Of a DNA stretch of 64,000 bases, positions 5,656 through 42,651 are shown piece after piece (within the stretch, counting starts at the first letter, position 1; every line of letters starts with the position of its first letter). The notes under the pieces are model-generated. The model worked only from the letters and a program-made list of their open reading frames with translations, was not told the DNA's origin and ran no database searches. Where the stretch lies: contig CALKGQ010000011.1 in assembly GCA_938085425.1 (NCBI GenBank), positions 1 through 64,000 on the forward strand, given 5' to 3'. Made by a program: the position numbers and the translations under genes. This stretch comes from an uncultured Flavobacteriales bacterium. GTDB taxonomy: Bacteria > Bacteroidota > Bacteroidia > Flavobacteriales_D > Sanyastnellaceae.

Positions 5656-7197
5656 ATGCAGCACCCTACAGAACGTTTGGAATCGATGCGTCAAGAAGCC
5701 CTTCTAGGAGGGGGTGAGGCGCGCATCGAAGCCCAGCATGGCAAAGGCAAACTGACCGCCCGTGAACGCATCCAGCTTTTGTTGGACCCCGGGACTTTCC
5801 AAGAATTGGGCCAATTGGTCACCCACAGGTCCACGAACTTTGGACTCGACAAGCAGAGGTTTTTGGGCGATGGCGTGGTCACGGGATATGGCAAAGTCAA
5901 TGGCCGCCAGGTGTACGTGTTCTCCCAAGATTTCACCGTGTTGGGAGGGTCTTTGGCGGAAGCGCATGCTGCCAAGATTTGCAAGATCATGGACATGGCC
6001 ATGGAAAACGGTGCCCCGGTGATTGGACTCAACGACAGCGGAGGCGCGCGCATCCAAGAGGGCGTCGTCAGTCTTGGGGGATATGCCGACATTTTCCACC
6101 GCAACGTGAAGGCCAGTGGTGTGGTGCCTCAACTCTCCTTGATTTTGGGTCCTTGTGCTGGCGGGGCCGTGTATTCTCCTGCATTGACGGACTTCATCTT
6201 CATGACGGAAGGCACGTCCTACATGTTTGTCACGGGACCCAACGTTGTGAAGACGGTCACCCACGAAGAAGTCACGTCAGAAGAGCTGGGGGGCGCGAGC
6301 ACCCACGCCACCAAGTCGGGGGTCACCCACTTCACCGCTGCCAACGAGGCCCTGGTCATTGAACAGGCCAAGCGCGCGCTTGGTTACTTGCCTCAAAATT
6401 GCGAGGAAGATCCTGCGCGGTTGGCCTACGATGCCAAAGATGAGACACGGCCCAATTTGGATGGGTTGGTGCCAGAGAGCGCCCAGCAGCCCTATGACAT
6501 CCGGGATGCGATCTCGGAGATTGTGGATGAAGGTTCCTTCATGGAAGTGCAGCCAGATTTTGCAGAAAACATGGTGGTGGGTTTTGGCCGATTGGCAGGT
6601 CAGAGTGTGGGAATGGTGGCCAACCAACCGGCATTTTTGGCAGGAGTGCTCGACAACAATGCGTCTGTCAAGGCGGCGCGCTTTGTGCGGACATGTGACG
6701 CATTCAATGTGCCGCTTGTGGTGCTGGAAGATGTGCCTGGCTTTTTGCCTGGCACCGACCAAGAATGGAATGGCATCATCACGAATGGCGCCAAATTGCT
6801 CTATGCCTTCAGCGAAGCCACCGTGCCCAGGATCACAGTGATCACGAGAAAGGCCTATGGTGGGGCCTACGACGTGATGAATTCTCGGCACATCGGGGCC
6901 GACCTGGTCTTTGCGTGGCCCACCGCAGAAATTGCGGTGATGGGGGCAAAGGGTGCCGCCGAGATCATTTTCCGCAAAGAGATTGCCGGTGCGGAGGACC
7001 CCGGCGCAAAACTGGCGGAGAAGGAAGCTGAATACGCGGAGCTTTTCGCCCATCCGTACAATGCGGCAAGCCGCGGTTATGTGGACGAGGTCATTCTCCC
7101 GAGAAACACCCGAGAAAAGCTCATTCAAGGCATGGCCATGCTCAAAAACAAGGCGGTCAAAACCCCTCGAAAGAAGCACAGCAACATCCCGCTCTAA
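5656..7197 (+). CDS. Acyl-CoA carboxylase carboxyltransferase (beta) subunit, propionyl-CoA type
   Basis: Biotin-dependent carboxyltransferase that moves the carboxyl group from carboxybiotin to an acyl-CoA (propionyl- or methylmalonyl-CoA type). The 513 residues carry both crotonase-fold carboxyltransferase halves. The first shows [14 protein letters not shown] (near 125-138) and [20 protein letters not shown]; the second shows [25 protein letters not shown] and [16 protein letters not shown]. Length and motifs match PccB/MmdA subunits. It stands alone in the window; the biotin carboxylase and carrier genes are elsewhere. The start is set by a TAGTTTCG box 4 nt upstream. It ends at a strong bidirectional terminator. 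Confidence 0.94.
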
Positions 7198-7213
7198 GCG
7201 GAAAGGTTAGGCG

Positions 7214-7256
7214 CAAAAAAAACGCGAAAGGGCCAGATGCTCTTTCGCGTTTTTTT
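7214..7256. terminator. Bidirectional intrinsic terminator
   Basis: A perfect inverted repeat, AACGCGAAAG with CTTTCGCGTT, has an A-run on one side and a T-run on the other. It lies between the convergent carboxylase (plus) and redoxin (minus) genes and can end transcripts from both directions. Confidence 0.9.
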
Positions 7257-7286
7257 GTGGAAGGTTGGTGGCCTTCTAGGGGTGAC

Positions 7287-7910
7287 TCAGCGCAAGCGCT
7301 TGATGGAGCATCCCACGGCTTTGGTCTCTGCCGTTTTGATTTTTTTGCCCGCCGCGAGACGCCCGATGGCTTCTTCGAGGTAGTGCTCACTGACCTCGGC
7401 TGAGCTGTTGACGTTGTCGTCAATCGAGCCGCAGTAGACCAAGGTCATGTCGGCGTCAAAGAGGTACACGTGAGGCGTGGTGCGCGCGCCAAAGTTGTTG
7501 GCGAGCTTGGAACCGCGGTCCACCACGTAAGGCACGGTGTAGCCTGCGTCACGTGCGTGGTTCTTCATCTCAGCCAAGCTGTCGTCCCCTGTGCGCTTGG
7601 CCTCGTTGGAATTCACCAACACCATGCCGATGTTCTTGGCTTCGGCCATGGCTGCCAGCCCATTGTATCGACCTTCCCATCCTTCCGTTTTGTTGCCATT
7701 CCCAACCACAAAGGGGCAGGTGTTGCAAGAAAAAATGACGAGGAGACCATTGTCCTTCTTCAATCCATTCATGGTCAGGTTGCTGCCATCAATGTTGATC
7801 AAGGGGGCGTCGACCATGGGTGCAGTTTCGCCGATGGCCAAATCTTGGGCTTGGACGGGGGCAAAGGCGAATGCCAAAACGGCAGTCAGGGAGAGGAAGA
7901 GAGATTTCAT
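7287..7910 (-). CDS. Exported thioredoxin-like redoxin (AhpC/TSA, PRX-like1 type)
   Basis: Thiol-disulfide protein with a thioredoxin fold, 207 residues. A signal peptide (residues 1-22, ending PVQAQ) sends it to the periplasm or outer membrane side. The active-site-like motif is Cys62-Asn-Thr-Cys65 in IFSCNTCPFVV, followed by ARTTPHVYLFD (cis-Pro region). It ends in GCSIKRLR, a conserved C-terminal cysteine pattern also found in the cytoplasmic relative at 22716-23276. The ATG at 7910 is preferred over an in-frame codon 30 nt upstream because it gives a clean signal peptide. It starts 26 nt after queA, so it is probably cotranscribed. Redox partner unknown. Confidence 0.86.
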   Translation of the reverse strand: MKSLFLSLTAVLAFAFAPVQAQDLAIGETAPMVDAPLINIDGSNLTMNGLKKDNGLLVIFSCNTCPFVVGNGNKTEGWEGRYNGLAAMAEAKNIGMVLVNSNEAKRTGDDSLAEMKNHARDAGYTVPYVVDRGSKLANNFGARTTPHVYLFDADMTLVYCGSIDDNVNSSAEVSEHYLEEAIGRLAAGKKIKTAETKAVGCSIKRLR

Positions 7911-7936
7911 GTGCAATTGGTTTTGGAGGGGTTTCA

Positions 7937-8986
7937 TCAAATGACCATCAAGGCGTCACCGTAGGCGAAGAAGCGGTACTTTTCTTTGATGGCTTCGTGG
8001 TACGCTTCCATCGTCAATTCGTGGCCTGCGAAGGCAGAAGTCGTCATGAGCAAAGTGCTCTGTGGCGTGTGAAAATTGGTGATGAGGGCGTCGGCAATTT
8101 GGAAATGAAACTTGGGGTAAATGAATTTGTTGGTCCACCCTTGAAACGGTTTCAAGGTTTGGGTTGTGCTCACGGAAGTCTCCAATCCGCGCAGCGCTGT
8201 GGTACCAACAGCCACAATCCGCTTTTTGTTTTCAATGCCTCGGTTCACGATGCGCGTGCAGAGTTCGTTGATGATGAGCTCTTCGCTGTCGACTTTGTGC
8301 TTGCTCAAATCTTCCACCTCGACTTCTCGGAACGTTCCCAATCCGATGTGCAAGGTCAACAAAGCCAAATCAATGCCCTTGATTTCAAGACGCTTCAAGA
8401 GATTCTTGGAAAAGTGCAGCCCAGCAGTGGGGACGGCCACGGCCCCTTCTTCGCTGGCGTAAATGGTTTGGAACCTGTCACGATCTTCTGGCTCGGCATC
8501 ACGGGTCATGTAACGGGGAAGAGGAGTTTGTCCCAGCTGATGCACCGTTTGCATGAACTCTTCGTGGGTGCCGTTGAACAAGAAGCGCAGGGTTCGACCT
8601 CGTGAGGTGGTGTTGTCGATCACCTCGGCGACGAGCTCGTCGTTTTCCCCAAAGTATAGCTTGTTGCCAATCCGAATTTTTCTTGCTGGGTCCACCAAAA
8701 CATCCCAAAGCAGACTCTCGCGGTTGAGTTCACGAAGCAAGAAAACCTCGATGACCGCGCCAGTTTTCTCCTTGTTCCCATACATCTTGGCAGGGAAAAC
8801 CTTGGTGTTGTTGGCCACAAACACGTCGCCTTCGTCAAAAATGTCCACCACGTCTTTGAACATGCGGTGCTCAAATTTTCCTGTGTCCCGATGGATGATC
8901 ATCAAGCGGCTGTCGTCGCGGTTGTCAAGAGGGTACTGCGCCACCAATTCTTCAGGAACATCGTACCTGAATTGAGAGAGCTTCAT
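7937..8986 (-). CDS. queA: tRNA preQ1(34) S-adenosylmethionine ribosyltransferase-isomerase
   Basis: Penultimate step of queuosine synthesis: transfers and isomerises ribose from S-adenosylmethionine onto preQ1 at tRNA position 34. About 349 residues, matching the family. Typical blocks are [20 protein letters not shown] at the N-terminus, [36 protein letters not shown] and [18 protein letters not shown] near the C-terminus. I use the ATG at 8986, where family homology begins; two in-frame ATGs lie just upstream. It has its own promoter at 9063-9093. Confidence 0.96.
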
Positions 8987-9062
8987 TCTTTGCATGGCCA
9001 TGGCTGCGGGGTTTCTGGAGAGGTGGTTGGGTCAGGTCTCAGGAGGTCGTTTCCGAGGCGCG

Positions 9063-9093
9063 CGAAAATAGCCAAAAACACCTTTCGTGTCAA
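9063..9093 (-). promoter_or_regulatory. Promoter of queA
   Basis: The minus strand carries TTG (9093-9091), 20 nt of spacer, then TATTTTCG (9070-9063), a good match to the Bacteroidota TTG-N19-TAnnTTTG consensus. The predicted leader before queA is about 70 nt. I found no convincing preQ1 riboswitch in it. Confidence 0.65.
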
Positions 9094-9121
9094 GGCGACA
9101 GGACAGGAAACCCACGGAAAT

Positions 9122-9895
9122 TCAAGAAGTTGGGTCCGCGTTGCTGAATCGCCCCACAAGGTCTTCGATGTGCCAAGCGTCGCGCACATGGAAATCACCG
9201 CTGGACACGCGACACAAGGCAGTGAGGGTGCCGCCTACGCCAAGGCTCTCTCCCAAGTCACGGGCCAAGGACCGGATGTAGGTGCCCTTGCTGCATCGGA
9301 TGTTCACATCGGCGTCGAGCACGGGATGGCCGTCCACTTCTCCTTCCCGGATGGCCAACACCTCAAATGCGTGGACTGTGACTTGAGACAGACGGAGTTG
9401 AAGGGTTTCTCCTTTCCGTGCGGCTTTGTAAGCCTTGACGCCCCCCACTTTTTTGGCGCTGTACATCGGTGGGCGCTGTTCCAAAGGACCGGTCCATTGG
9501 GCCGCTGCTTTTGCCACATTCTCCATGGAGAGGCCGCGCACCACCTCGGGATCGCTTGCCCATGCATCCACCTCTGTTTCTGCATCCAGCGATGGGGTGT
9601 GTGCGCCCAGCCGAATGGTTGCCGTGTACACTTTGTCCTGTGCTTGGAGGGTGTCAATGGTCTTGGTGGCCCGGCCGCAGCACACAACCAGCACTCCTGT
9701 GGCCAGAGGGTCCAATGTCCCGGCATGGCCCACTTTGATTTTTTTGACGCCTGTGAATCCGCGAAGGGCGTACCGCAATTTGTTGACCACATCAAACGAG
9801 GTCCATGTCAGGGGCTTGTCCACCACAAGGGTTTGTCCTTCGAGAAAAGCCTCGGGACGGTCAAACGGCAGTTCATGTGGGGCGGCCTTGGGCAT
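9122..9895 (-). CDS. truB: tRNA pseudouridine(55) synthase
   Basis: Converts U55 of the T-loop of tRNAs to pseudouridine. 257 residues, the compact bacterial form. The catalytic aspartate is Asp62 in GHAGTLDPLATG (56-67). VVDKPLTWTSFDVVNKLR at 24-41 and CSKGTYIRSLARDLG in the C-terminal half are also standard TruB motifs. It follows mfd after 27 nt and is probably on the mfd transcript. Confidence 0.96.
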   Translation of the reverse strand: MPKAAPHELPFDRPEAFLEGQTLVVDKPLTWTSFDVVNKLRYALRGFTGVKKIKVGHAGTLDPLATGVLVVCCGRATKTIDTLQAQDKVYTATIRLGAHTPSLDAETEVDAWASDPEVVRGLSMENVAKAAAQWTGPLEQRPPMYSAKKVGGVKAYKAARKGETLQLRLSQVTVHAFEVLAIREGEVDGHPVLDADVNIRCSKGTYIRSLARDLGESLGVGGTLTALCRVSSGDFHVRDAWHIEDLVGRFSNADPTS

Positions 9896-9922
9896 GATGC
9901 AAAGGTATTCGGTTCGTGATGC

Positions 9923-12900
9923 TCAGGTGCCTCGGGGAGCTGGCGCTTCAGGGGTCACCGTTTTTTGAGACAAGGCGGCCGCTTCATCGGCCGTCATGCC
10001 GGCGATGTCCTCAAAAATGGCCAAGGCCTGCAGCACCGTTTCCACCTTCTCGATTTTGAGCCTCAAACCGCCATTGCGCTGGTACATGCTGGCATCCTTT
10101 GCGTGGTGCTTGAGGTATTCCAGCACACGCGCAAAAGTGGCACTTTGGAAGTAGGGACTTTCTTCGTCCGAGACGAAGGCGGCAATGAGCTTGCCGCTTT
10201 TCAGGACCAGTTTTTCCATGCCCAACAATTGCGCGACCCACCGAAGTCGGATGGTCCCAAGCAGTTCTTCAGTCGCATCAGGCAGAGGCCCAAACCGATC
10301 CTCCAGGCGGTGCCTGAACCCCTTCATGTCCTCTGCGTGATGCAGGTTGTCCAGCTCACGGTAGAGGGCGATCCGTTCGGGAATGTCACTGACGTAATGG
10401 TCTGGAATCAGAAGCGACAGGTCAGTCTCCAGAACGGTCTCTTCGACAAAGCGTCCCGATTCAACTTGGTCGGCTTCCATCAAGTCCTTGAATTGTTCCT
10501 CCTTCAGTTCTTTGACGGCTTCTGCCAAAATCCGTTGGTACATGTCAAACCCGAGGTCATTGATGAACCCGCTCTGCTCGGCACCAAGAAGATCTCCAGC
10601 GCCCCGAATGTCCAAATCCCGCATGGCAATTTGCATGCCCGAACCCAAGTCTGAGAATTGCTCCAAGGCTTGGAGACGTTTCCTTGATTCTGCGGGAAGG
10701 GCGCTGAGTGGCGGGGCCATGAGGTAGCAAAAAGCCTTCCTGTTGGAGCGACCCACCCGTCCGCGAAGCTGATGCAAATCGCTCAAGCCAAACTTGTGGG
10801 CTTCGTTGATCAACATCGTGTTCGCATTGGAAATGTCGATGCCGCTTTCGATGATCGTGGTGGCCACGAGCACGTCGTATGCCCCGTCGATGAACCGCGC
10901 CATGACATCCTCGAGTTCCTTGCCTTCCATTTGGCCATGGCCAATGCCCACCCTCGCATCCGGCACCAAACGCTGGATCATTCCTGCCACCTCTTGGATG
11001 TTCCCCACGCGGTTGTGCACGAAGTAGGCCTGCCCTCCGCGGCTTAGCTCATAGGCGACCGCGTCGCGGATCACCTCTTCGTTGAACCCCGTGATGACCG
11101 TGTCCACAGGGTGCCTGTTGGGCGGAGGGGTTCGGATGATGCTCAAGTCCCTTGCGCCCATCAGGGAAAATTGTAGGGTCCGCGGGATGGGGGTGGCCGT
11201 GAGGGTCAACGTGTCGACGTTCGCTTTGAAGGTCTTCAGCTTGTCTTTGACACCCACCCCAAACTTTTGCTCTTCGTCGATGACCAAAAGGCCCAGGTCC
11301 TTGAACTTCACGCGTTTGCCCACAATGGCATGCGTGCCGACCAGGATGTCCACCTCCCCGCTTTCCACCTTTTTCAAGGTTTCCGTCAGGGCCTTGCCTG
11401 TCTTGAATCGGTTGATGAACTCCACGGAGACAGGGAACTCGCGCAGACGTCGGCTGAAGCTCTTGTGGTGCTGCATGGACAGGATGGTCGTGGGCACCAA
11501 CACGGCCACTTGCTTGCCGTCGCACGCTGCTCGGAAGGCCGCCCGGATGGCGATTTCCGTTTTGCCAAAACCCACATCGCCGCAGACCAATCGGTCCATC
11601 GGAATGGACTTGAGCATGTCCTCTTGGACGGCCTTGCTCGCGGCATTCTGGTCGGGCGTGTCTTCGTACATGAAGCTGGCCTCCAATGCGTGCTGCAGGT
11701 AGCCGTCGTCGGGGTAGGCATGGCCCGGTGCCGTCTTGCGCTTGGCATACAACTGCAGCAGGTCGTAGGCAATTTGCTTGACCCTGCCCTTGGTTTTTTG
11801 CTTGGTCTTGGCCCATGTGGCGGTCCCGAGCTTGTTGATTTTGGGCTGGGTCCCTTCCTTGGAGCTGTACTTTGAAATGCGGTGCAGGCTGTGGATGCTG
11901 ACATACAACACATCCCCACCTCGGTAGGTGAGTCGGATGGCCTCCTGCATCTTTCCGTTCACCTCGATTTTGTGCAAGCCACTGAATTCACCAATGCCAT
12001 GGTCGATGTGGACCACGTAGTCGCCCACCTCCAATGACATCAATTCTTTGATGGTCAGCGCCTCCTTGTTCTTTCGAAAACCCTCCTTCAGCCGGAAGCG
12101 ATGGTAGCGCTCAAACAGCTGGTGGTCGGTGTACACCAAAATCTTGAGCTCCTTGTCCACGAAGCCCTCGCTCAACTCCATGGGAATGGGCTTGTACGGC
12201 ACGGGCTCTTCGTGTTCTTCTAGACGGTCGTGGAAGACATCGTGCAGACGTTCCAATTGGGTGGCCTGCCCGCTGACCACCACATTGACGTAGCCGTTCT
12301 TGTGGTTGGACCGGAGGTTCCCGGCGATCAGGTCAAACTGTTTGTTGAAGGCTGGCTGGGCAACCATCCCATATTTCAAGATGAATCGGTTGGCCCAAGT
12401 GGTCCCTCCCCCAAACTCCACCACGCCAAACGGCTCGAGCAGGGATTCGAGATGCTCGCCGTCGAGAAACAGTTCTTCCGGTGGGGTCCTTTGGACTTCT
12501 CCACTCAGCCGGTCGTAATGCGCCTTTGCCCGCTCCATGGCCTTGTCCAATCCGGCAGCACATCGCTTGGCGTCGGCCATCCAAAGCACAGCGTCCTGGG
12601 GCAAGAACCCAAAGAACGGCTCGTGGGCCTCATGCAAGCTTGTGTTGCCCACGTTGGGCACAATGGTGGCGCGGGTCATCTTGGCGACACTGAGCTGTGA
12701 AGTGGGGTCAAACTTTCGGATCGAGTCCACATCGTCGCCAAAGAATTCAATGCGGTAAGGGTGGTCAAAGCTGAAGGAAAAAATGTCGACGATGCCTCCC
12801 CTCATGCTGTACTGTCCGGGTTCGTAGACGAAGTCGACCTTTTCAAAGTCATACGCCAGCAACACCTCATCCAAGAAGTCCATGGTGTAGGTCTCCCCCA

Positions 12901-37844: not shown

Positions 37845-39149
37845 TCAAGCTTTTGGGCCGAGTTCTTCGAGGCCTGCTTTCAGCACGTGCCCAAACCTCA
37901 CAATGTCCTCAAAGGAGTTGTACATCGGCACGGGTGCCATGCGAATCACTGCGGGCTCCCTCCAATCCACGACGACCCCATGGGCCATGAGGTGGTCAAA
38001 CAGCGCCCGACCATGCCCATGGGCCACGATGCTCAATTGGCACCCACGTGCTTCTGGATCTCTTGGGGTCAGGATTTCGAGGGAGGTGCCAGTCAACTCT
38101 GCGACGGCACCCACCACTTCTTCAAGAAATGCTGTGAGCCGGAGGGAGCGTTCGCGCAAAGCGGACATGCCCACCGACAGAAACAAGTCCAGTGCGACTT
38201 TGTGGACCGCCATGTTCAGGACTGGGGCATTGCTCATTTGCCATGCTTCGGCACTTGGCATGGGCACGAAGTCGGGGGCCATCTTGAACCGGCTCTCGGC
38301 ATCATGTCCCCACCAACCTTCGAGACGTTGCATCGCGGTGCCAAGGCCTTGGGCATCTCGCACGTGACGTTCGTGGATGAACACTCCTGACACGGCTCCT
38401 GGTCCGGAGTTCAGGTACTTGTAGCTGCACCAACAAGCGTAGTCCACCTCCCAGTTGTGAAGCTCCAGGGGAACATTCCCCATGGTATGTGCGAGGTCAA
38501 AACCACAGGTGGCGCCCACCTTGTGTGCAGCTCGGACAATGCCCTCCATGTCGTGAAGTTGCCCCGTATAGTAGTTGACGCCGCCAATCATGACGGTGGC
38601 CAAGGCGTCGCCTGTCTCTTGGATTGCCGCCACGATGTCCTCCGTCCGCAAGTGATGTTCCCCTTCCCTTGGGGCCACCTCCACCAAGTCGGTTGCTGGG
38701 TTGCCGCCATGCAGCTTGATTTGGCTGCACAACGCGTACCGGTCGCTGGGAAAGGCCTTGGCTTCGCACAAGATTTTTGTCCGTCCCGCTTTGGGGTTGT
38801 AGAAGCTGATGAGCAGCAAATGCAGGTTCACCGTCAGGCCATTCATCGCCACCACCTCATGCGGCTTTGCACCGGTCAAATGGGTGAGTCCGTCCACAAA
38901 TCGATCGTGGTAGTTGACCCATGGATGTTGTCCATGAAAATGTCCTTCCACCCCAAGACGCGCCCAATCGTCGAGTTCCACTTGCAATGCCTTTGCCGCC
39001 GCTTTGGGCTGAAGGCCGAGGCTGTTGCCCGTGAAGTACATGGCATCTTGGCCACCGTGTTGGGGCAAATGAAACTCCTTGCGCAGTGCGCTCAACGGGT
39101 CGTTGCGGTCGAGGGCGCGCGCTTCTTCGAGAGAGGGGAGGTCCTTCAT
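37845..39149 (-). CDS. kynU: Kynureninase
   Basis: PLP enzyme that cleaves kynurenine or 3-hydroxykynurenine to anthranilate or 3-hydroxyanthranilate plus alanine. About 434 residues. The PLP lysine is Lys244 in CWCSYKYLNSGPG, and Asp218 in GFDLAHTMGN binds the PLP ring. YFTGNSLGLQPKA near 38-50 and WWGHDAESRF are also family motifs. The ATG at 39149 is placed 7 nt after a TACATTTG box. With the 3-hydroxyanthranilate dioxygenase at 54447 it fits the tryptophan-to-quinolinate (NAD) route. Confidence 0.95.
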   Translation of the reverse strand: MKDLPSLEEARALDRNDPLSALRKEFHLPQHGGQDAMYFTGNSLGLQPKAAAKALQVELDDWARLGVEGHFHGQHPWVNYHDRFVDGLTHLTGAKPHEVVAMNGLTVNLHLLLISFYNPKAGRTKILCEAKAFPSDRYALCSQIKLHGGNPATDLVEVAPREGEHHLRTEDIVAAIQETGDALATVMIGGVNYYTGQLHDMEGIVRAAHKVGATCGFDLAHTMGNVPLELHNWEVDYACWCSYKYLNSGPGAVSGVFIHERHVRDAQGLGTAMQRLEGWWGHDAESRFKMAPDFVPMPSAEAWQMSNAPVLNMAVHKVALDLFLSVGMSALRERSLRLTAFLEEVVGAVAELTGTSLEILTPRDPEARGCQLSIVAHGHGRALFDHLMAHGVVVDWREPAVIRMAPVPMYNSFEDIVRFGHVLKAGLEELGPKA

Positions 39150-39168: not shown

Positions 39169-42100
39169 TCATGGGCAGGGCTCCCCGAATGCCGCCAAGA
39201 TGCCATCCAACAGATCTTGGACTGTGACACTGCCATCGCCATTGATGTCTGCCACGCAATTGGAGGTGCACCCAAAGTCCCCGAGGAACATGAGCACATC
39301 TCCGATCACAATGAACCCATCGTTGTCCAAGTCTCCAGAACAAGTCCCAGGGTCTGGGGTGCAATCGACATCGGCAGAGCCATCCCCGAAGAAGGACATG
39401 CTTCGCTCAAAGGCATCCAAACCAATGTCGATGCCCATGAGACGGCCGGGAACGTCGTCGAAGTAGGGGTGGATGCCCCCATAGATGCGACTCAAGCTGC
39501 ATTCGTCAGAGGCGTCTCGGTAGGTCGCCCATTGCAATTCAATGTCGACACTTGGCCCATCTTCAAAGACCAAAAACTCGTTCGCAGGCGCTTCAAACGT
39601 CCCCATGCCACCAGGGAAGTAGGCGTCTCCCGTGAATGCGGTCAACACTTCCGCCGCTGCCCGTGAAAAGGTGCTGTGGCCGCTGACGTATCCACCAAAA
39701 TTGGGGCTGACAAAGGAAGGTCGCTGGTAGGGCTCCCACGACTCTGCCAACACCCAACCAACTCCCGCAAATTCCGTGTCGACGTTGTTGATGACACTGC
39801 TGCCTCTCCACGCCCAAAGTTTGATTTTTCCCACATTCACTCCGCCTTGACCTGCAAGTGCATCGCCAGCTTCCACGGTTTCAATGGAGCCCGGAATCAA
39901 AGGCAATCCACCGGGGTGGAAGTTGCTTGCGGACGCGTCGGTGCGCTGCCCCAATTCTGCCATTCCACGAATCGCTGTGATGGGACGCGAGGAGTCGTAC
40001 CACCCCTTGGTTCCCCAGACCGACACTGCGCAGTCGTGCATGGCAGAGCCCAAGGACAAATAGGACTTGACGTCCCACTCGAGGTCAGAAAGGACGTCAC
40101 CCTCCCCCTGGTATTGCTTGACCAAATCCGGATGATCGCTCACGTAGTTCAGGATGGTGAACCAGTGTCCTGGCGGGGTTTCAGAGTCTGGCCCATCGGC
40201 CCAGAATTCAGCCAGTACCCTGGCGTAGTCTCCCCGCGGCACCATGTTGGCGGCGTAAGGGTTGCCGGTGGCAGGGTTCACGGCGTGCCCAGGGCTGGGC
40301 GACCCACCATTTTCAGCATCGTAGAGGTCACCGTAGGTGGCCAAGGTGGTGGGGAATGCCCCGCGGTTGCCAATGGCCCCTGGGCTAATGTCCCACATGA
40401 CCCCATCTGTAGGGTCCAACATTCCCGACCATTGGGCCACCATGCTGTGAGATTCAGCGTAAAGGTCGGAGGTCCCAGATCCATCGTTGGTGTGCATGGC
40501 AGGAGGCCCCGGGTCATGGTAGACTTGGTAATCAAATCCTCCTCGCGAGTAAGTCGTCAGATCATCCGAGTGCAGTGCCCAAGACGTCACCTGACCCCAC
40601 TCTGGAGAAAGGAAGGGGGGCGTTTCGCCAGGAATCGCATTGCCACTTTGGTCGATGAACAAGTCCAATGTGAGGGGCTGCCAGCGGTTGAGGTCGCTGA
40701 CGGAGGCATTTCCAGGGAGGTCCACAATCAAAGGCTCATTGACCGGTTCGTAAGACTGGTTGGCGAAGTTGTTGGTTTCGTTGGCCCCATCTTGCATTCC
40801 GAAGGCGATGATTTGCGCGGCGAGATGGTTGCCCAAGGCCCTGCCATCGCCGTTGCTGTAATCGGTGTCAGTGAAGCTGATGTCGTACCCAAGGGTGGTC
40901 ATGTGGAGGTCGTACCCCACCATCAAGTTGTCCGCATCCGGAGCATCCGCAAAGCGATGCTTCAAAAAGCGGTACATCCCAAAGGCAATGGCTTCGTCCC
41001 TGGCTTCAGCGGGACTGTTCGCCGGCTCAAAGCCGTCAAAAGGTGCCGTGAACCCGTCGTAGTCCATTCCCAAAAATGCAGGGCATGACCCGGGGTCCAT
41101 CACGGACCAGGCGTCCCACATCAACATCGAGCTGTGCCAGAGGTTTCTGGCATGCACCGTTGGCCTTGCGAAGTCACCTCGGATGCTGGCCAGCAACATC
41201 TCATTCCATTGGCGGGCCATGCTGTGGCCCGTTTCCACGACAGGAAAATCGATGTCTTCGGAACAATCGGGGTCCGGGTTGGTGGGACAGACATCGCAGG
41301 CATCTGGCACCCCGTCCAAGTCGTAATCGGCCGCAGAAGCTACGAGGGCGCAGTTGGCCGACATGACAATGTCATACCCTTGGCACTTGCCGCTGAAGAT
41401 GTCGATCAGGCCATCGTTGTTGATGTCCAACAAAGCGACGTCGTAGCTGTTCGTCACCCAGTCAAAGTTGGTGTTGCCGTAGGGGTCGGCAAAGGTGCCG
41501 TTTTGGTTTTCGTAAATCGCCATGCGCCTCCCGCTGTTGCAAGGGGGGATGTCCACGTCCACATCGCTCACCACCACATCGATGTCCCCATCGAGGTCCA
41601 AATCTGCTGCATGTACGTTGCCCCCAAACCCATTGGAGGAGCTGAAGCCCAAATTCACCACGTCAAAGCCCAAGCTTTCATCTGGCGTTCGTGAAGTGGC
41701 GGTCAGCACCTTGTCGCTTCCGTCGTCCACGACGTAGAGATCGAGCCACCCGTCCCCATTGAAGTCGACCACCTCAAACATGTACGGCGAAGAAGAAGGC
41801 ACGAGGTTTTGCCAGTTGTTGAACTGGCCTTCACCGTCGTTGAAAAGCACAATGACCCCTCTCGAATTCCAGGGGGACACGTTGTACAAGGTGGTGTTCT
41901 TCACAATGTCCAAATCACCGTCGCCATCCATGTCCGCGATTTGGCCTGCAGTGCCAAAGGCGCTGTTTCTCAAGTCGCCCATCCGAGCTTCTCCATCGTC
42001 GACAAAGTGGCCCGTGCCATCGTTGATCAGAAGGAAATCTTTGGCCGTGCCTCCTCCTCCGTTGACACGGTAGTTCACGAAGTAGAGGTCTTCGGACCCA

Positions 42101-42651
42101 TTGCCCGTCAAATCACCCGCCCAAATGGCACAAATCAACGGCTGGTCACTGCTGAGCGATGGAAGGCGCTCCGCCGATTCGTCCAACAGACCCAACCACT
42201 CTCCCTCTGCACTTTCCCCTTGGTTCATGTACAGCATGGGCTGTTGGTTGAAGGTGTTCGCCACCACCACGTCGTCCCATCCATCGCCGTCCACGTCCGT
42301 CACGTAAATGTCCCTTGCAAAACTTGGGTTGGTCAAAAACTCTGGAGCATAGGTGGCGGTGGCGTCCACGAGCACCCCGTTTTGATTGAGCAGCAACAAG
42401 TCTGATTTGGGCGGCTCAGTCGGGGCGGAAAACGGTTCTTTCCGCACCACGATCACGTCCATCCAACCGTCCTTGTTCAAGTCGGCGGTCCAAATGTCTT
42501 TTTCCTCGTCGTCGTTGTTGGCGACGGTGGTCAAGACCAGCCTTTCCTCCGAGGCCATTTCCCAATCCAGCCATTGTCCCCAACTGGAAGTGGCGTTCAA
42601 TATCAAGAGCAGCGAAAACGTCAGGCAAAGGCGAAGGGGAGAATGAATCAT
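39169..42651 (-). CDS. Secreted FG-GAP / vanadium-haloperoxidase-like (PAP2) / dockerin-like protein
   Basis: 1160 residues, exported (signal 1-25, ending SSWG). Residues 50-420 hold FG-GAP/VCBS repeats with Ca2+-binding-type DxDGDGxxD loops (120-128, 241-249, 351-359, 409-417), probably a beta-propeller. A thrombospondin-3-like segment follows (DYDLDGVPDACDVCPTNPD, 442-460). Residues 470-1090 resemble vanadium-dependent haloperoxidases of the PAP2 superfamily, with Lys882-x6-Arg889-Pro890, Ser990-Gly-His992-Ser and Ser1054-Arg1055-x5-His1061. The last 55 residues (1104-1160) are two dockerin-like EF loops (GDLDNDGF, ADINGDGSV). No T9SS sorting domain. Substrate unknown: halogenation or phosphatase chemistry are both possible. 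No clear promoter box in the 81 nt upstream. Confidence 0.85.
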   Translation of the reverse strand: MIHSPLRLCLTFSLLLILNATSSWGQWLDWEMASEERLVLTTVANNDDEEKDIWTADLNKDGWMDVIVVRKEPFSAPTEPPKSDLLLLNQNGVLVDATATYAPEFLTNPSFARDIYVTDVDGDGWDDVVVANTFNQQPMLYMNQGESAEGEWLGLLDESAERLPSLSSDQPLICAIWAGDLTGNGSEDLYFVNYRVNGGGGTAKDFLLINDGTGHFVDDGEARMGDLRNSAFGTAGQIADMDGDGDLDIVKNTTLYNVSPWNSRGVIVLFNDGEGQFNNWQNLVPSSSPYMFEVVDFNGDGWLDLYVVDDGSDKVLTATSRTPDESLGFDVVNLGFSSSNGFGGNVHAADLDLDGDIDVVVSDVDVDIPPCNSGRRMAIYENQNGTFADPYGNTNFDWVTNSYDVALLDINNDGLIDIFSGKCQGYDIVMSANCALVASAADYDLDGVPDACDVCPTNPDPDCSEDIDFPVVETGHSMARQWNEMLLASIRGDFARPTVHARNLWHSSMLMWDAWSVMDPGSCPAFLGMDYDGFTAPFDGFEPANSPAEARDEAIAFGMYRFLKHRFADAPDADNLMVGYDLHMTTLGYDISFTDTDYSNGDGRALGNHLAAQIIAFGMQDGANETNNFANQSYEPVNEPLIVDLPGNASVSDLNRWQPLTLDLFIDQSGNAIPGETPPFLSPEWGQVTSWALHSDDLTTYSRGGFDYQVYHDPGPPAMHTNDGSGTSDLYAESHSMVAQWSGMLDPTDGVMWDISPGAIGNRGAFPTTLATYGDLYDAENGGSPSPGHAVNPATGNPYAANMVPRGDYARVLAEFWADGPDSETPPGHWFTILNYVSDHPDLVKQYQGEGDVLSDLEWDVKSYLSLGSAMHDCAVSVWGTKGWYDSSRPITAIRGMAELGQRTDASASNFHPGGLPLIPGSIETVEAGDALAGQGGVNVGKIKLWAWRGSSVINNVDTEFAGVGWVLAESWEPYQRPSFVSPNFGGYVSGHSTFSRAAAEVLTAFTGDAYFPGGMGTFEAPANEFLVFEDGPSVDIELQWATYRDASDECSLSRIYGGIHPYFDDVPGRLMGIDIGLDAFERSMSFFGDGSADVDCTPDPGTCSGDLDNDGFIVIGDVLMFLGDFGCTSNCVADINGDGSVTVQDLLDGILAAFGEPCP

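Follow-up and report, generated by a model that had tools for sequence, protein, structure and literature searches.

Among the described systems closest to the protein reported here are NapH1 (PDB 3w35, 3w36), a bacterial vanadium chloroperoxidase that acts in napyradiomycin biosynthesis, the vanadium iodoperoxidase of Zobellia galactanivorans (PDB 4cit, 4usz), which also belongs to the Bacteroidota, and the vanadium chloroperoxidase of the fungus Curvularia inaequalis (PDB 1vnc, 1vni, 1idu). The gene in question lies at 39169..42651 on the minus strand of a 64,000-nucleotide stretch of DNA (the window; contig CALKGQ010000011.1, assembly GCA_938085425.1) from an uncultured Flavobacteriales bacterium of the Sanyastnellaceae, is open from its ATG and encodes 1160 amino acids, the coordinates including the stop codon. 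Along the protein a signal-peptide-like start is followed by an FG-GAP propeller, a TSP3-like linker, a roughly 620-residue module and a dockerin-like tail of two EF-type repeats that runs to the stop. The module shares its two-bundle fold with NapH1 (19% identity), the Zobellia enzyme (20% identity, about 410 residues) and the Curvularia enzyme (16% identity, beyond the reach of the sequence searches), but the solved NapH1 chain has no propeller or tail and the solved Zobellia chain has no FG-GAP or dockerin-like part. For the tail, the nearest described group is that of the GC-type dockerin domain-anchored proteins (NCBIfam NF041540), which likewise end in a two-EF tail with a terminal Cys; the tail of the present protein falls under the cut-off of that family, which is in any case uninformative on the enzyme.

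On the sequence and model evidence the protein is best regarded as a vanadium haloperoxidase family member with a new domain arrangement and a predicted chemistry, and it is likely to be a secreted vanadium-dependent haloperoxidase. A word-based literature search returned no paper joining vanadium haloperoxidase with dockerin, or haloperoxidase with FG-GAP. An initial annotation made from the DNA letters had already singled out this gene; its observation is real and was correctly spotted, while its interpretation was partly supported, as described below.

The catalytic part covers approximately residues 471-1090 (39382..41241, minus strand), with a first bundle that is partly DUF6851-like and a second bundle of the VCPO_2nd type. 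The Pfam model VCPO_2nd (PF22778) was matched above its curated cut-off of 27 bits by the whole protein (29.5 bits, E 9e-7), and DUF6851 scored 21.1 bits over the first bundle, short of its own cut-off of 27. Four haloperoxidase-type chains matched the module in a single-sequence search of solved structures, and a 55-row profile matched solved haloperoxidase-type sequences at E values of 1.5e-15 to 4.5e-8, with 9ptr, 9l8x, NapH3, the Zobellia enzyme (4cit) and NapH1 being the sole matches up to an E value of 1. An AlphaFold2 model of residues 471-1095 (predicted local distance difference test score, pLDDT, 86.6; predicted template modelling score 0.90) aligned with NapH1 at a Z score of 28.5 (437 residues, 2.7 A), with NapH3 and 9l8x at 28.3 each, with the Zobellia iodoperoxidase at 26.6 (398 residues) and with the Curvularia chloroperoxidase at 21.4 (424 residues), comparison with a vanadium chloroperoxidase being what the initial annotation had proposed. 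The catalytic part had been taken for a PAP2 domain at that stage. Its active-site set is real, but the PAP2 model PF01569 was not significant in the protein (E 0.21, 11.8 bits against a cut-off of 27.2) and the gene is not one of the two PAP2 matches in the genome; from sequence and model, a complete vanadium-haloperoxidase module with two bundles is the better description of the catalytic part, which goes beyond a bare PAP2 domain.

The first vanadate-binding motif with its second-shell Trp (W879, K882, R889 and P890; 39982..40017), the second motif with F985 and S990-G991-H992 (39676..39699), in which H992 is the expected acid-base His, and the third motif (R1055, H1061 and D1065; 39457..39489), whose His would be expected to bind vanadate, are all encoded on the minus strand and were identical in 56/56 aligned rows, comprising the protein itself, 53 homologues and two paralogues from the same genome. 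K882, R889, P890, S990-G991-H992, R1055 and H1061 stand exactly where the initial annotation had placed them, with the spacing that it gave. The site residues were also invariant in 55/55 rows of a further alignment (A2), in which one row duplicates another. All six vanadate-binding residues (K, R, S, G, R and H, in three motifs) are present, and the acid-base His of the S-G-H motif, which is kept in part of the haloperoxidase family, is present as H992. Judged by the VCPO_2nd match, the profile matches and this invariance, the active-site match is beyond chance.

Several results weigh against the haloperoxidase assignment. The VCPO_2nd pass is a narrow one, with a best single segment of 26.4 bits in a six-frame search, just under 27, and the model was under its cut-off in 3/7 homologues scanned. 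In the structure model residues 512-514 (982-984 of the protein), beside F985, have a pLDDT below 50, and a full-length model of all 1160 residues from an 11-sequence alignment reached a pLDDT of only 36.6 and was unusable for domain packing. Algal and cyanobacterial bromoperoxidases gave Z scores of only 9-11 (about 300 residues), which do not exceed those of acid phosphatases. The fold score therefore ties the module to the NapH, Zobellia and Curvularia group rather than to haloperoxidases in general. Fold alone is also no proof of halide oxidation, since NapH3, 9ptr and 9l8x differ at the position of H992 and NapH3 carries out a rearrangement.

Two other functions were weighed against these results. 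The initial annotation had allowed for halogenating or phosphatase activity, and a secreted phosphatase of PAP2 chemistry, with phosphate as its natural ligand and a role in scavenging phosphate outside the cell, would be consistent with the scores of the acid phosphatases (Z 12.2, about 200 residues aligned between model positions 215 and 620), which equal or exceed those of the bromoperoxidases. The three motifs are moreover common to haloperoxidases and acid phosphatases, and the Curvularia chloroperoxidase itself is reported with phosphatase activity, according to PMC4859513. The first bundle is present and conserved, however, and the NapH1, Zobellia and Curvularia enzymes align with the module as a whole at Z 21-28. 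Foldseek E values were 1.6e-16 to 5.2e-10 for this group, whereas bromoperoxidases gave 9e-4 to 1e-2 and acid phosphatases no better than 0.7; the non-significant PF01569 score points the same way. Because the whole module follows the two-bundle fold of this group, it is less probable that the enzyme acts mainly as a phosphatase, and we regard the phosphatase explanation as improbable. The haloperoxidase-type site, on the other hand, stood by profile, conservation and model.

A haloperoxidase homologue without halide oxidation, using vanadium-free chemistry in the manner of NapH3, was also considered. One of the solved folds closest to the module is that of NapH3, which is titled as catalysing an alpha-hydroxyketone rearrangement, but NapH3 has Phe at the H992 position in the single-sequence search alignment, whereas His occupies that position in 56/56 rows here. 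The position is not decisive, as Ser is found there in 9ptr and also in 9l8x, which is titled a halogenase with vanadate. Such a function appears very improbable for the present protein, and vanadium-dependent haloperoxidase activity remains the preferred assignment.

The second shell of the site bears on the choice of halide. An Arg occupies the position three residues before the catalytic Lys (K-3) in the Corallina enzymes and in the bromoperoxidase of A. marina (R425, with K428 as the Lys), and its change to Ser improved chlorination by both, according to PMC11871015. No bromoperoxidase-type Arg was present at K-3 in the alignment, where W879 is found in 56/56 rows, and this sequence feature speaks against a bromoperoxidase second shell without separating a chloroperoxidase from an iodoperoxidase. 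The initial annotation had likened the site to that of chloroperoxidase. Trp at K-3 is the residue of the fungal chloroperoxidase, and the Curvularia enzyme has the same seven site residues and the same second-shell Trp and Phe, so that the likeness held for Trp at K-3 and Phe at S-5. By spacing, F985 matches F397 of the fungal chloroperoxidase, a suspected halide acceptor according to PMC10427571. In the 55-row profile alignment, however, the Zobellia iodoperoxidase shares the S-G-H motif and has both the Trp and the Phe; the pair was therefore rejected as proof of a chloroperoxidase, and no halide is assigned to the enzyme. The residues deciding the halide are described as largely unknown in PMC13198595. 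A preprint (PMC12871659) gives a catalytic Lys and Ser as the mark of selective haloperoxidases; if that Ser stands at the H992 position, the present enzyme with its His would be of the non-selective kind.

In the proposed mechanism the module would, after export, bind vanadate through H1061, with K882, R889, S990, G991 and R1055 holding it in place and H992 acting as the acid-base residue. Hydrogen peroxide would give peroxovanadate, by which halide would be oxidised to hypohalous acid, and the hypohalous acid may then halogenate or oxidise extracellular organic matter. The FG-GAP propeller may be an accessory domain, or one for binding, that calcium stabilises; the calcium-dependent adhesion and the particle-associated marine life suggested in the initial annotation would be hypothetical extensions of this role. 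The tail at the C-terminus would be a targeting or anchoring tag, for which relatives swap in a type IX sorting domain or go without; because they replace the tail or do without it, the tail would fix the location of the enzyme and not its activity.

The dockerin-like tail covers residues 1104-1160 (39172..39342, minus strand), with two EF-type repeats and Cys at 1104 and 1159. It has the layout of a type I dockerin, two EF-type repeats at the protein end, but its matches to solved chains of dockerin type are weak (E 0.095 and 0.44). The EF pair named in the initial annotation clearly resembles other tails of its own genome but reached 19.1 bits against the NF041540 cut-off of 29, which five other tails of this genome exceed. 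A profile built from 13 tails matched 55 places of the 2.07-Mb genome at E <= 0.01 (for example L117, L119 and L122), some of them inside long repetitive frames, and the dockerin-like tails resemble a genome-wide C-terminal tag found at these 55 places. Among the best 30 of the 55 matches, 28 distinct tails were measured (L120 gave no row and L108 returned the tail of its neighbour), all of which end 0-3 residues before the stop; for 10/28 this position is by construction, as they are profile members picked as open reading frame ends, and for the remaining 18/28 it is not. Six of the 28 consist of the second EF repeat only and end in FG-x-x-C at or beside the stop. Across genomes, the NF041540 tail was found in 30/60, namely 30/37 of the family to which this bacterium belongs and 0/23 from other families of the order.

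No match to the cohesin family (Pfam PF00963) was found in the genome, which is 97.8% complete, or in 11/11 genomes of the genus including this one, and for this reason the tail is termed dockerin-like only. It is probably not a cellulosomal dockerin, as far as the sequences indicate. A true dockerin by which the enzyme docks on a cohesin scaffold would suit the two repeats in dockerin layout and the weak matches to solved chains, and PMC6461901 proposes, for freshwater Planctomycetes, cohesin-dockerin systems that act outside cellulosomes and cellulose degradation. PF00963 was lacking in 27/30 tail-bearing genomes and matched in three, and a divergent cohesin could possibly have been missed by Pfam. 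In six genomes of further dockerin-tailed homologues, partly outside the Bacteroidota, a cohesin was over the cut-off in 0/6, with one weak match. Given the absence of PF00963 matches from this genome, the genus and most tail-bearing genomes, and the single-repeat form of 6/28 measured tails, docking on a cohesin is unlikely.

The type IX secretion system might recognise this tail in place of a Por_Secre sorting domain, an explanation that is possible but doubtful. A SprA-type translocon domain (PF14349, 70 bits) is encoded in the genome, the 28 measured tails are C-terminal, and Por_Secre takes the same place in two relatives of the same clade (L018 and L021). Por_Secre (PF18962) was not among the Pfam matches of the protein itself up to E 1. 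The genome also has 41 Por_Secre matches, however, and planctomycete homologues end in tails of this kind too. Planctomycetes are not known to possess type IX secretion. A purely type IX signal was accordingly tried and set aside as weakened by these planctomycete homologues. A further possible explanation, more far-reaching, is a cohesin-independent C-terminal tag of a family-wide Bacteroidota surface-display system that would stand beside the type IX sorting domains, come in full (two EF) and half (one EF) size, be closed by Cys and read by a receptor, and be carried by many secreted proteins including all three haloperoxidase paralogues found in this genome. Earlier literature may well have treated this tail already.

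Ahead of the module, a signal-peptide-like stretch was recognised by eye at about residues 1-26 (42574..42651, minus strand) from its basic start, hydrophobic core and end SSWGQ, and the enzyme is, from this sequence, probably exported from the cell. The FG-GAP propeller follows at about residues 56-441 with limits set by eye (41329..42486, minus strand); as the initial annotation had proposed, it was found by Pfam (FG-GAP_3, E 1.4e-25 in five stretches; FG-GAP, E 4e-7), and six calcium-loop motifs were identified in it with a regular expression. The TSP3 segment, residues 441-462 (41266..41331, minus strand), is recognisable by eye as had been claimed but scored 16.5 bits with Pfam TSP_3, under the cut-off of 25.

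Homologues matching at E <= 1e-5 were found in 45/60 genomes, this one included, some of them covering parts of the protein only. The architecture, which the initial annotation had suggested seeking elsewhere, was recovered as full-length or near full-length matches, propeller included, in 18/60 genomes, again including this one. Thirty-seven named loci belong to Flavobacteriales, Saprospiraceae, Alteromonadaceae, Colwelliaceae, Cellvibrionales, Planctomycetota and one Myxococcota record, so that the module is seen in Bacteroidota, Gammaproteobacteria, Planctomycetota and that single myxococcal record; they come mainly from metagenome assemblies, those titled with a strain being Aestuariibacter salexigens and Paraglaciecola arctica. 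Three copies of the module are present in this genome (C11, C4 and C1), each with a dockerin-like tail. A gene fragment in L042, which is titled Rhodospirillales, is 78% identical to the protein and far closer than the other homologues from outside the Bacteroidota; the contig is probably misplaced or misnamed.

The 56 rows used for a tree comprised 64 module rows, from which the fragments L042, L043 and L068 and a second open frame of L020 had been removed beforehand, minus nine same-genus rows (L004-L012) and L015, which duplicates L040, plus the two paralogues. The protein fell within a 20-row clade with support of 100/100, in which 19/20 open frames have at least 467 residues ahead of the module, L039 being cut by a contig end. 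FG-GAP-type motifs were found by regular expression in 20/20 clade members, five of which (the protein itself, L013, L018, L021 and L041) were also run against Pfam, and on this evidence the propeller is kept in the clade. C-termini in the clade, labelled by eye, were dockerin-like in fifteen and other in five, "other" meaning that no dockerin-like end was seen. Among the labelled rows of the tree, L040 was called dockerin-like although its contig stops after the first repeat, and several rows called "other" (L019, L022, L023, L027 and L032) reach the end of the available sequence. Por_Secre was found in 3/7 proteins scanned (L018 and L021 of the clade, and L046), and the ten gammaproteobacterial homologues end directly after the module. 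L024 and L062, placed on distant branches, both bear N-terminal FG-GAP and ASPIC/UnbV domains, a pattern that suggests repeated joining of propellers to the module or their frequent loss. In the Saprospiraceae, chains of MopE-type copper-binding repeats lie between the module and the C-terminus in L046, where they were identified with Pfam PF11617, and in L047, L049 and L050, where they were identified by eye.

A kynureninase gene (37848-39149, minus strand) starts about 20 bases past the haloperoxidase stop codon on the same strand. It is found downstream on the same strand in 10/10 genomes of the genus with an orthologue, four directly and six after a gap of about 1.3 kb, and adjacency was seen in 0/9 genomes of other genera with an orthologue, as far as the contigs show. 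A functional link was rejected on this count, and the pairing looks like local gene order. The Altibacter record L048 has a kynureninase (6564-7814, 47% identity) beside a distant haloperoxidase (7911-10097) in the other orientation, which is possibly a coincidence.

These results place haloperoxidases with complete active sites, three of them in a single genome, in uncultured Bacteroidota nearest to named Flavobacteriales; Planctomycetota and Alteromonadaceae also have relatives of the module. With its exchangeable tail, one and the same enzyme can be compared cleanly in forms with a dockerin-like tail, a type IX sorting domain or no tail, which would be useful for the role of dockerin-like tags where no cohesin is found. 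If active, the enzymes would be an unmeasured extracellular source of hypohalous acids and organohalogens.

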